A DNA stretch of 20,603 nucleotides from positions 1 through 20,603 of the IMG/VR virus record IMGVR_UViG_3300017763_000270. The stretch is one strand, 5' to 3'. How positions within the stretch are numbered: position 1 is the stretch's first letter; every line of letters begins with the position of its first letter. Below the pieces are notes generated by a model. The model was not told the origin of the DNA and ran no database searches. It saw nothing but the letters and a program-made list of their open reading frames with translations. Origin of the DNA: a virus. Position numbers and translations under genes: made by a program. Shown piece after piece: positions 10,556-19,180 of this stretch.

Positions 10556-10585
10556 ATTATATCATATAAAATGCGTTTTGTACAG
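10556..10585 (-). promoter_or_regulatory. Leftward CTGTAC-type promoter (antisense)
   Basis: Read on the minus strand: CTGTAC (10585-10580), 18 bases, then TATAAT (10561-10556) preceded by TGA. All elements and spacing match the five rightward copies. The predicted start is near 10549. No minus-strand gene of reasonable size lies ahead, so the product would be an antisense or small RNA over the LSm-like gene and possibly uvsW. Confidence 0.7.
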
Positions 10586-14010: not shown

Positions 14011-14041
14011 TCTGCAAAATAAATGCAGAAAACACTGTACA
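14011..14041 (+). repeat. 29-base repeat upstream of the CobT-like gene (copy 1)
   Basis: Bases 14013-14041 are identical to 16277-16305 and contain an A-rich stretch, a TGCAGAAAACA core and the CTGTAC box. Twenty bases of it (14024-14043) recur inverted at 10577-10596. In this copy TCTGCA (14011-14016) and TGCAGA (14024-14029) form a perfect inverted repeat around AAATAAA, a possible protein-binding site or weak hairpin. Confidence 0.85.
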
Positions 14042-14064
14042 AATGTGCCCAAACCTGGTACAAT
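14035..14064 (+). promoter_or_regulatory. CTGTAC-type early/middle promoter of the CobT-like gene (P3)
   Basis: CTGTAC (14035-14040), 18 bases, TACAAT (14059-14064) with TGG before it. The predicted start is near 14071, followed by AAAAGGAG (14081-14088). A near-late box TATAAATT lies at 14070-14077 and may add late expression. Confidence 0.83.
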
Positions 14065-14094
14065 ACATATATAAATTAATAAAAGGAGTGAACT

Positions 14095-16275
14095 ATTAAT
14101 ACTACAATTGCAAAATTACTAGCCAAAGAAGACATTACTGTTAAAAGCGGTAACTATCAGACTGCATGGTTCGATATTAAAAATAGAGTATTAGGTTTAC
14201 CTGCATGGGATAATGCTACCAAAGACGTAACAGATCTTTTAATAGGTCACGAAGTAGGACATGCATTATATACACCGTTTGAAGGTTGGCATGATTCTCC
14301 AGAGAAATTAGAAGGATGTCCTAGATCATATATTAATGTTGTAGAAGACGCTAGGATTGAGAAAAAAATCAAGAAAGATTATCCTGGTTTAGTTGGTCCA
14401 ATGTCAAGAGGATACAAAAAACTAGTAGCTGATGAATTTTTTGGCGACGTAGATAACATCGATTGGGATAAAGTAAAACTAATTGATAAAATTAATCTTG
14501 AAGCTAAAGTAGGCAATTTGGTAGATGTACCATTTAATGCTGAAGAGCAAAACCTTTATCATAAAACTATGACAACTGAAGAATTTTCAGAAGTACTAGA
14601 TGTTGTTAGAGAAATTCTAGCTTATACGAAAGATAATCAACAGGATCTTATGACTCCTCCGCAAATGCCTGAACCAGACGTAGATGATAACGAAAAAGAA
14701 GATAACGAAGATCCTACATCAATGGGTCACGACGACATGGAGAATGATTATGAAAAAGAAGAAAATACTAGAGATGAACAATCCTCCTCTAATAATGAAG
14801 TTGATAAAGATACAGAAAACACAGAAGAAGAATCAAACGCTTCAACCAATCCTCAACCTGAGCATACCGATGAAGACGTATCAGTCACTGATGAAATTTT
14901 TAGAGCAATGGAAGAATCATTAATACCTGAAACAAGTGATACTACTTACGGAAATTGTATTGGTAAAGAAAAAATCAATAAAGCAGTTATTTTACATAAA
15001 GATCTTATGGATAAAAGAACTGACAGGTTGAATAAAATGATTGAAATTTATAAGGATGATGATTACTATAGTAATAACTACAGCAATGGTGTTCTTACTC
15101 AAAAGATGGAAACAGAGTTTAAAGATTACATAAGAAAGGTAAAGAAATCAATTGTTCCAGCAGTTAAAGAGTTTGAGCAAAGAAAAGCTGCTACGAGATG
15201 GATGCATGCACAAACTGCAAAAACTGGAAGAATTGATGTTAATAAATTGCACAGCTATAGAGTATCAGAAGATATTTTTGCAAAAACTACACATCTAGCA
15301 GACGCAAAAAATCATGGTATGTTTATGTTAGTAGATTATTCTGGATCTATGTGTGATCAATTACATAATGTTTTAGATCAAATTATTCATAGTGTTCATT
15401 TTTGTAAAGCAGTAAATATTCCATTTGAAGTTTATGCATTTACTACTGGAACAGATTATAGAATGAGTGATTATTCTGATGGAGACATTCACATGGATTC
15501 ATTATCTATGCCACAATTAATACATAGTTCTCTAAAGAAAAATGATTTTGAGCAAGCACTAAAGTGGTTATATGCTAGAACAGATTGGGCACGAGGTTCA
15601 TATAATGATTACATAAAGCCAAAAGAAGAAGACTGGGGTTCTACACCACTTAATCAAGCTTTAATTGTTACTCATTCTCTAATTAAAAAGTTTAAATCTA
15701 AGCATCAGTTAGAAAATGTAACACTTTTATCTATTACTGATGGTGATACAAACAGACTTAACATATATGAAGATAGTAGCTTAAATATAAAAAGAGTAAA
15801 TAACACTTCAGCTTACTGGGATGGAAAAACACAAATAACAATAGATGGTAGAAGAGCTCTTCTAAGAGATAGAGGCAGAAATGGAACTGAAGATCTCTAC
15901 ATTAATCTTAAGAAAAGATATGGCGTTAACACAATGGGGTTCTTTGTAGCTAATGGCTCTAAAGAATTAAACCATAAAATTATGGATGCGTATCATAAGA
16001 GTAATGATTGGTATTCATCAGAATTTCAGAAATTTAGAAAATCTAAAATTAAAGAAAATACAAAAAACAGATGTATTGAATTTACCAACGTATTTGGATA
16101 TGATAACTACTATGTTGTAAGAGGCGATAAATTTGGAGTAGATGTTGAAGATTCATTTGAAATATCTGAAACAGCTTCTGATAATCAAATAAGATCAGCA
16201 TTCAAAAAATACTCAAATAATAAGAAAACAAATAAAAATCTGATGACCAAGTTTGGTAAGGCAGTTGCAGTTTAA
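14095..16275 (+). CDS. HExxH metallopeptidase-like and VWA domain protein (CobT-like), apparent AUU start
   Basis: The frame is open from a TGA at 14089 and has no ATG, GTG or TTG until 14401, yet the intervening part clearly encodes protein. ATT at 14095, six bases after AAAAGGAG, is the best start and gives 726 residues (M/I-NTTIAKLLAKEDITV). Residues 52-56 are HEVGH, and VVEDARIE (82-89) could supply a third metal ligand and recalls the 'LEDARVE' segment of bacterial CobT. An acidic, low-complexity linker spans about 190-270. The C-terminal VWA domain has the MIDAS DYSGS (414-418) and TDGDT (548-552). It pairs with the AAA+ ATPase downstream, like CobS-CobT or MoxR-VWA systems that remodel or load metals into partner proteins. 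The substrate is unknown; starting at 14401 would lose the HExxH motif. Confidence 0.85.
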   Translation: MNTTIAKLLAKEDITVKSGNYQTAWFDIKNRVLGLPAWDNATKDVTDLLIGHEVGHALYTPFEGWHDSPEKLEGCPRSYINVVEDARIEKKIKKDYPGLVGPMSRGYKKLVADEFFGDVDNIDWDKVKLIDKINLEAKVGNLVDVPFNAEEQNLYHKTMTTEEFSEVLDVVREILAYTKDNQQDLMTPPQMPEPDVDDNEKEDNEDPTSMGHDDMENDYEKEENTRDEQSSSNNEVDKDTENTEEESNASTNPQPEHTDEDVSVTDEIFRAMEESLIPETSDTTYGNCIGKEKINKAVILHKDLMDKRTDRLNKMIEIYKDDDYYSNNYSNGVLTQKMETEFKDYIRKVKKSIVPAVKEFEQRKAATRWMHAQTAKTGRIDVNKLHSYRVSEDIFAKTTHLADAKNHGMFMLVDYSGSMCDQLHNVLDQIIHSVHFCKAVNIPFEVYAFTTGTDYRMSDYSDGDIHMDSLSMPQLIHSSLKKNDFEQALKWLYARTDWARGSYNDYIKPKEEDWGSTPLNQALIVTHSLIKKFKSKHQLENVTLLSITDGDTNRLNIYEDSSLNIKRVNNTSAYWDGKTQITIDGRRALLRDRGRNGTEDLYINLKKRYGVNTMGFFVANGSKELNHKIMDAYHKSNDWYSSEFQKFRKSKIKENTKNRCIEFTNVFGYDNYYVVRGDKFGVDVEDSFEISETASDNQIRSAFKKYSNNKKTNKNLMTKFGKAVAV

Positions 16276-16276
16276 T

Positions 16277-16305
16277 TGCAAAATAAATGCAGAAAACACT
16301 GTACA
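16277..16305 (+). repeat. 29-base repeat upstream of the CobS-like gene (copy 2)
   Basis: Identical over 29 bases to 14013-14041. It starts only a few bases after the stop of the CobT-like gene and includes the CTGTAC box. The inverted repeat present in copy 1 is reduced here to TGCA/TGCA. Confidence 0.85.
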
Positions 16306-16328
16306 TTTGACTCAAAACCTGTTACAAT
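16299..16328 (+). promoter_or_regulatory. CTGTAC-type early/middle promoter of the CobS-like gene (P4)
   Basis: CTGTAC (16299-16304), 18 bases, TACAAT (16323-16328) with TGT before it. The predicted start is near 16335. TATAAATC (16334-16341), a near-late box, follows in the same relative place as in P3. Confidence 0.83.
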
Positions 16329-16362
16329 ACTACTATAAATCAAAAAAGGAGTGAATTATATT

Positions 16363-17484
16363 ATGATAAACGTGAACACTAAGAACATTTTGGATAAGCT
16401 AATTGAGCAATATCCAGATACTACAATTTTTAGAAAAGCTACAATAGTAGAAATAGCAAAATCTTTAGGTTATACCAAGAAAGATTGGGCACCTTTACTA
16501 GAAACAAAAGGTGAAACCAGAGGTCAATATGATCTATCGGCTGTGATTTTACCAATAAGAGAAGAGCCAATTAAGGATGACACAACCTTAAGTATGCAAT
16601 CAATAGTTAACCAAGAGAGAAACTTCGCATCAGTAGATGATACTTTTGTGCCATGGGGTTTCTTTAAAGATGTAACTAAAGTAATAAAATCAGAAATGTT
16701 TTATCCAATGTACATATCTGGATTATCAGGTAATGGTAAAACTTTCATGGTTGAACAATCATGTGCTAAATTAAACAGAGAGTTTATTAGAGTACAAATT
16801 AATCCAGAAACAGATGAGGACGACTTACTTGGCGGATTTAGACTTATTAACGGAGAAACTGTATTCTCTAAAGGCCCAGTTCTTAAAGCAATGGAAAACG
16901 GTGCAGTATTATTGCTCGATGAAATTGATAGAGCTACAAATAAAATTATGTGTTTACAAGGTATATTGGAAGGTAAGCCAGTCTTGGTTAAAAAGACGGG
17001 TGAAACAATTATTCCGCAACCAGGATTCAACATAATTGCTACGGCTAATACAAAAGGTAAAGGTTCAGATGATGGTAGGTTTACAGCTGCATCAATCATA
17101 GATGAAGCTTTCCTAGAAAGATTTACTATATCAATAGATCAACAATTTCCAGCTAAATCAATTGAAACAAAAATTGTAATTAATCATATGGAAAAGTTTG
17201 GTTCAATTGATAAAGAATTTGCTGAAAAGCTAGTTACTTGGGCAGATATAATCAGAAAGACATTTGCAGATGATGGTGTTGATGAAGTAGTTTCAACGAG
17301 AAGGTTATGCCATATTACACAATCATATGCTATCTTTGGAGATAAGCTAAAAGCAATTGATCTATGTATCTCAAGGTTCGATGATGATACAAAGGAAGCA
17401 TTCCTAGATCTTTACACTAAAGTAGATTCAGGTGCTTTGGATAGCGAAGAACAAGAAATCGAATCAGAGGATAACTATGAGTAA
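16363..17484 (+). CDS. cobS: MoxR/CobS-type AAA+ ATPase
   Basis: This 373-residue AAA+ protein has Walker A GLSGNGKT (120-127), Walker B LLLDEID (D186-E187), the pre-sensor insertion pattern DEDDLLGGF of CobS/MoxR ATPases, sensor 1 IIATANTKG and an arginine-finger region EAFLERF. Marine T4-like phages usually carry it as 'cobS', named after the ATPase subunit of cobaltochelatase; whether it acts in cobalamin synthesis is doubtful without CobN. Its partner is most likely the VWA protein just upstream. GGAG (16348-16351) precedes the ATG by 11 bases; the in-frame GTG at 16351 overlaps the ribosome site and is unlikely. It overlaps the next gene by eight bases. Confidence 0.9.
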   Translation: MINVNTKNILDKLIEQYPDTTIFRKATIVEIAKSLGYTKKDWAPLLETKGETRGQYDLSAVILPIREEPIKDDTTLSMQSIVNQERNFASVDDTFVPWGFFKDVTKVIKSEMFYPMYISGLSGNGKTFMVEQSCAKLNREFIRVQINPETDEDDLLGGFRLINGETVFSKGPVLKAMENGAVLLLDEIDRATNKIMCLQGILEGKPVLVKKTGETIIPQPGFNIIATANTKGKGSDDGRFTAASIIDEAFLERFTISIDQQFPAKSIETKIVINHMEKFGSIDKEFAEKLVTWADIIRKTFADDGVDEVVSTRRLCHITQSYAIFGDKLKAIDLCISRFDDDTKEAFLDLYTKVDSGALDSEEQEIESEDNYE

Positions 17485-18916: not shown

Positions 18917-19180
18917 ATGGAAAAAACAGAACAAACAAAATTACTTGATGCGTTAAAAAAAGGTACCGTTACGGTATCATTCAGAAAACTTGACTCTGGA
19001 GAACTAAGAGTCATGCCTTGTACACTCAATCCTATAGTACTAGAAGCAAATGGTGTTAACACTATATTTAATTATAAAGCAGGAAACATGGAAGCATTTC
19101 CAGTGTGGTCGCTTGATAAAAATGCATGGAGAGCTTTTAGATTAGATACTGTAGAAGGTTGGGAGGTTTTAGGTGAATGA
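18917..19180 (+). CDS. DUF2693-like small protein
   Basis: This 87-residue protein (LLDALKKGTVTVSFRKLDSGELRVMPCTLN...VWSLDKNAWRAFRLDTVEGWEV) has the beta-rich layout 'L..G.v.VtF.K.dG..R.m.cTLn ... v.d..k..wRsFr.d.i' of the DUF2693 family, common in T4-like phages and of unknown role. GAAGGA (18904-18909) precedes the ATG at 18917; an in-frame TTG at 18902 lies in the terminator T-tract and is unlikely. Its last eight bases overlap the start of gene 44, so the two are translationally coupled. Confidence 0.75.
   Translation: MEKTEQTKLLDALKKGTVTVSFRKLDSGELRVMPCTLNPIVLEANGVNTIFNYKAGNMEAFPVWSLDKNAWRAFRLDTVEGWEVLGE

Follow-up and report, generated by a model that had tools for sequence, protein, structure and literature searches.

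At which codon does translation of the CobT-like gene begin on the stretch of viral DNA studied here? The analysed stretch as a whole, hereafter the window, comes from a marine T4-like phage, of which it represents a 20.6-kb fragment; in its major capsid protein it shares 61-62% identity with Methylophilales phage Melnitz, with Pelagibacter phages HTVC008M and Mosig, and with Phage C48C1. The program-made list of open reading frames opens the gene at an ATG at 14401. The same frame runs on upstream to a TGA at 14089, after which it reads ACT, ATT (14095-14097), AAT, ACT, ACA, ATT, GCA, and it contains no ATG, GTG or TTG between that TGA and codon 103 (14401). The first-pass annotation, made from the letters alone, had proposed that the gene starts at the ATT, as AUU in the mRNA. 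Re-reading of the sequence reproduced its frame layout exactly (TGA at 14089, ATT at 14095, first standard start at 14401), as well as the gap of six bases between AAAAGGAG and the ATT and the motifs LLAKEDITV, FDIKNRVLGLPAWD, HEVGHALYTP and VVEDARIE in the N-terminal stretch. It had also warned that gene callers would choose 14401 and thereby lose the HExxH motif; the listed frame does begin there, and HEVGH comprises residues 52-56. The features of the gene are as follows.

14081-14088, plus strand: Shine-Dalgarno (SD) sequence AAAAGGAG, 6 nt (TGAACT) upstream of the ATT
14089-14091, plus strand: in-frame TGA, which bars any earlier start; shared by the three contigs with the AUU codon
14095-14097, plus strand: ATT (AUU), the probable initiation codon
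14095-16275, plus strand: CobT-like gene (PHROG 459 'peptidase'), 726 residues with an N-terminal zincin-like domain, an acidic linker and a VWA domain
14248-14262, plus strand: HEVGH motif (residues 52-56), lost with a start at 14401
14401-14403, plus strand: ATG of Met103, an internal residue (codon 103) that acts as a decoy for gene callers
15334-15348, plus strand: MIDAS motif DYSGS of the VWA domain (residues 414-418)

We consider it very likely (probability about 0.9) that the CobT-like gene is functional and is initiated at ATT 14095, AUU initiation being the best explanation of the sequence data set out below. The duplex of AAAAGGAG with the anti-SD has a predicted energy of -10.4 kcal/mol, tied third among the 21 start sites of the window, and its distance to the AUU is good for initiation.

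The coding character of codons 2-102 was investigated by several approaches. At the base composition of the window, the chance of 102 stop-free codons is ∼1.6e-4. The phrog_459 profile matched residues 2-141 with E=2.8e-56 when the first 142 residues were searched alone, and with the full protein it gave an E-value of 2.5e-159, residues 3-725 being aligned to positions 8-736 of the 736 in the profile. Comparison of codons 2-102 with the homologue L067 gave a dS of 1.2 and a dN of 0.03, and comparison with L149 a dS of 1.56 and a dN of 0.10. The dN/dS of the stretch before 14401 was about 0.02-0.06 against these two relatives, and on this comparison the codons are under strong purifying selection. 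Residues 2-102 make up 14% of the protein length and hold 51 of its 107 invariant alignment columns. The claim that 14095-14400 reads as coherent coding sequence was thus borne out by dN/dS, by the invariant residues and by the phrog_459 match. Synonymous changes occur as early as codon 3 (ACT/ACC/ACA) and codon 5 (ATT/ATC/ATA), which argues that translation is already under way by codon 3. By every sequence test applied, the stretch upstream of 14401 appears to be translated.

The N-terminal domain, when folded alone with AlphaFold, gave a zincin-like model with a pLDDT of 91 that begins at residues 1-3. In this model the HEVGH motif lies on a helix (residues 43-59), and H52, E53 and H56 are invariant in 25 homologues. 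E84, D85 and E89, on a predicted helix formed by residues 77-95, are also invariant and are candidate third metal ligands. The top structural matches were mostly zincins (ZMPSTE24, Ste24, minigluzincins, BlaR1, IrrE, ArdC) with Z-scores of only 5-7, and Foldseek returned E-values above 0.1; the zincin assignment of the modelled domain as a putative peptidase is suggestive. The VWA domain gave a VIA Z of 15.9 to the Rea1 MIDAS domain (Rea1/MDN1) and of 15.8 to the NorD VWA domain. It has the VWA fold, and the D, S and S of DxSxS are invariant in DYSGS. The protein matches the PHROG 459 profile over its full length, and no Pfam family reached its cut-off with the protein of the window. CobT_C was matched only by the homologue L009, with an E-value of 0.15 that is below the cut-off, and TIGR02442 scored 20.8 bits against a cut-off of 779. 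Judged by these curated models (Pfam CobT/CobT_C; NCBIfam), the protein lies outside CobT proper. A sequence search of solved structures gave no match at a meaningful E-value.

The conservation of the ATT was analysed in related contigs. This codon is likewise ATT in two contigs of other metagenomes: G004, which carries L067/L001 (74% amino acid identity) and L184, and the 68.6-kb G001, which carries L149/L068 (64-65%). Both have an in-frame TGA two codons upstream of the ATT and the same SD as the window. Synonymous sites are near saturation between the window gene and these two relatives, and the path from the window to L149 in a tree of 28 homologues amounts to 0.75 changes per site. In that tree the three AUU sequences form one clade with a support of 100/99, and the sister clade (8 rows) has ATG at that codon, in the context aaaggagtgattat-ATG-AAT. 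The first-pass annotation had suggested checking whether relatives have ATG here; the sister clade does and the two closest relatives have ATT, so a read error and a change private to the window are both ruled out.

For 171 distinct starts surveyed among homologues, ATG is available in 166, only GTG or TTG in 2 and no standard start in 3, and these three are exactly the window, G004 and G001. When the viral collection was scanned for the start-region pattern with the third base left free (AAAGGAGTGAAYTATNAAYAC, ATN), only G004 and G001 matched, both with ATT. Scans with CobT, SbcC-like and CobS-like queries returned G001 and G004 as the only AUU members among the matches listed, and further AUU members may exist. 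As a separate observation, L087 and L239, from two other lineages, have a CobT-like gene that lacks ATG and offers only GTG or TTG, which hints at repeated use of weak starts in the family. Since two divergent contigs retain the ATT, the sister clade carries ATG there and the gene has no alternative usable start, the proposed AUU start is strongly supported.

The codon before the ATT is ACT in the window, which rules it out as a shared start. Between pairs of AUU contigs, 15-16 of the 17 bases from -14 to +3 are alike; conservation extends to the entire leader, and that of the ATT is therefore not independent of it. Because of this, and because only three members of the clade were sampled, the sequence conservation of the ATT argues for its use and speaks less strongly for selection favouring AUU rather than AUG. 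In the outgroup L078/L080 the start region reads ggagttaatt-ATG-CAT-AAT. A 3-nt deletion of GCA from a sequence of this type would yield ggagttaatt-ATT-AAT, which is one possible origin of the AUU start among others.

Among the alternatives to initiation at the AUU, the one that survives best, although it is highly improbable, involves an overlapping mini-ORF. A GTG-AAY-TAT-TAA of three codons (14088-14099 in the window) is kept in each of the three AUU contigs, its TAA overlapping the ATT, so that ribosomes could translate it from GTG 14088 and then either re-initiate at the AUU or shift by +1 into the frame of the gene. However, this GTG shares bases with the SD core (GGAGTG), which leaves it without a usable SD of its own and makes its use as a start unlikely. 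After a +1 shift at UAU-UAA the P-site tRNA would presumably be unable to re-pair, and re-initiation would still use the AUU.

A sequencing or assembly error at a codon that is really ATG has next to no probability left. ATT differs from ATG by a single base and relatives outside the clade carry ATG, but the identical ATT stands in two further contigs that differ at many other positions, and the ATG of the sister clade stands at a different spacing from the SD. Equally little remains for translation from ATG 14401, with the upstream stretch not made or the gene a decayed remnant: this ATG is the first standard start codon in frame, but such a start is contradicted by the purifying selection and the invariant columns described above, would delete HEVGH and most of the zincin-like domain, has no SD-like sequence before it by direct reading (TATCCTGGTTTAGTTGGTCCAATG), and would begin at a residue, Met103, that behaves as internal, being Phe in 6 of the 15 homologues that start upstream. 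Sequencing error, pseudogene, a 14401 start and frameshifting are thus refuted or unlikely.

Four further candidates were rejected. An upstream leader ORF from ATG 14043 is open in the window and in L067 and lost in L149. Relaxed start usage throughout the phage was assessed in G001, G002 (88.8 kb) and the window, where long ORFs without ATG, GTG or TTG within 25 codons of the open stretch were not otherwise found, the sole further case being cut by a contig end; this approach is blind to AUU starts that are followed at a short distance by an ATG. As to a special phage tRNA, none was found in the window, and the neighbouring tRNAs of relatives are those for Ala, Arg and Leu. The respective genes, L149:3833-3908 (Ala) and L167:3730-3906 (Arg, Leu), lie between the gp46/SbcC-like and CobT-like genes, an interval in which no tRNA gene was found in the window. 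RNA structure that could block the start was limited to weak folds of -1.8 to -3.1 kcal/mol over 80 nt, which differ among the three contigs.

The region upstream of the AUU is related to the one that precedes the neighbouring CobS-like gene. The features concerned are the following.

14013-14096, plus strand: leader of the CobT-like gene, promoter to SD, repeated before the CobS-like gene
14036-14064, plus strand: promoter-like site TGTACA-N17-TACAAT with an extended -10 (TGG), assigned by motif recurrence
16363-17484, plus strand: CobS-like MoxR/AAA+ ATPase gene with an ATG start and the same kind of leader and SD

A generic sigma-70 scan alone did not rise above chance at 14036-14064; the longer promoter motif, however, is found again immediately before genes in the window, G001 and G002. 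Its position implies that the leader of the CobT-like gene is short. The motif consists of TGTACA-N17 and an extended -10 TA(C/T)AAT, often with ACAC or AACC in front, and lies mostly just upstream of genes. Its sites in the window are at 10584 (minus strand) and 10610, 14036, 16300 and 17761 (plus strand), the first two forming a divergent pair; G001 has 11 sites and G002 has 14. As the prediction of middle and late promoters failed in pelagimyophages (PMC7029224), this motif class may be useful.

The leader repeat spans 83 nt with 85% identity between 14013-14096 (CobT-like) and 16277-16359 (CobS-like); related paired leaders are also present in L149 and in the sister clade. The SD-to-ATG spacing of the CobS-like gene is 11 nt in the window (11-12 nt were noted for CobS). 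Given the shared leader, the two genes differ in their translational signals mainly by the start codon and its distance from the SD. Elsewhere in the window, the clamp-loader-like gene (gp44) at 19173 apparently starts at GTG, judged only by its N-terminal resemblance.

The following course of events may be proposed. An ancestor would have had ATG at or beside the site, and a single change to ATT would have preceded the divergence of the window from its two relatives and have been retained since. On a transcript from the promoter just upstream, the strong SD with its 6-nt spacing would seat the initiator fMet-tRNA on the AUU, around which there is little RNA structure, and ribosomes would begin there. 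The third-base mismatch would lower the efficiency of initiation, so that output could be several-fold below that of an ATG and limited by IF3. The lowered output may hold the VWA protein beneath its AAA+ partner, whose gene has ATG behind an almost identical leader. The first-pass annotation had suggested a low protein level, sensitivity to IF3 or a tie to the translational state of the host; by analogy with infC, pcnB and S. aureus cvfC1, low or IF3-sensitive expression is plausible.

That the AUU has been kept in order to set the dose of the VWA protein below that of the AAA+ partner, with IF3 as the limit, is a tentative explanation. It is favoured by the near-identical promoters and SDs of two genes of which one has AUU and the other ATG, by the conservation of the AUU despite ATG being one base change away, and by infC and sigR, whose non-standard starts are limited by IF3 (PMC5472188). 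However, the sister clade has ATG on both genes, so regulation through AUU is not essential to the gene family, and the long SD-to-start spacing of CobS (11-12 nt) may lower CobS output too. It is more doubtful still that the AUU was selected as a dosage device of this lineage, in which the start codon alone would set the ratio of AAA+ protein to VWA peptidase and tie the peptidase to host IF3.

The CobT-like gene shares the features of known AUU genes: it has no standard in-frame start, and its AUU lies at SD distance, is conserved and is aligned with the ATG of homologues. An internal AUU start has reportedly been found in T4 gene 26, likewise a case of AUU initiation in a T4-type phage, although there the AUU is the internal start of a shorter product and not the sole start. 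In E. coli, infC and pcnB also have AUU behind an SD; they differ from the present case, which is a phage gene whose product is not a translation factor. The AUU of infC places it under IF3 control, and sigR is IF3-repressed as well (PMC5472188). The AUU of pcnB limits its expression (Binns and Masters 2002, as cited in PMC13009471), and IF3 disfavours AUU/CAU in vitro (PMC10158994). In S. aureus cvfC1, whose SD is extended, expression from AUU reaches about 10% of that from AUG (PMC13009471). As in the CobT-like gene, AUU and a strong SD are conserved across a lineage of Staphylococcus (PMC13009471), whereas cvfC1 encodes a small protein and its start was mapped by experiment. The Borrelia burgdorferi gene pncA (BBE22) starts at AUU and is listed in databases as an N-terminally truncated protein that lacks activity residues (PMC13398362). 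It shares with the CobT-like gene both the AUU start and the risk of truncated annotation, but is a plasmid-encoded bacterial enzyme whose start was proven biochemically and by structure.

The PHROG 459 'peptidase' of cyanophages and pelagimyophages matches over the full length and has the same CobS-like ATPase neighbour, but the other homologues examined start at ATG, or at GTG or TTG, unlike the AUU clade. The layout of a MoxR AAA+ gene adjoining a VWA gene with a MIDAS is shared with NorQ-NorD and CobS-CobT; the CobT-like protein differs from NorD and CobT in its extra N-terminal zincin-like domain and in having no gathering-level match to the CobT family.

In 36 groups of prokaryote genomes, a change from AUG to AUU was seen in 1 of 61,358 ancestral AUG starts (PMC5622118). 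Well supported natural AUU starts are few, and the one described here is conserved over a large divergence. On the sequence evidence, the CobT-like gene with high probability joins the small known class of AUU-initiated genes, in which its conservation through a phage lineage is unusual. It is a widespread gene of T4-like marine phages, which standard gene callers would misannotate in this clade, dropping the catalytic-looking domain. The sister clade with ATG and the ATG neighbour with the same leader constitute a natural experiment on the effect of the start codon.
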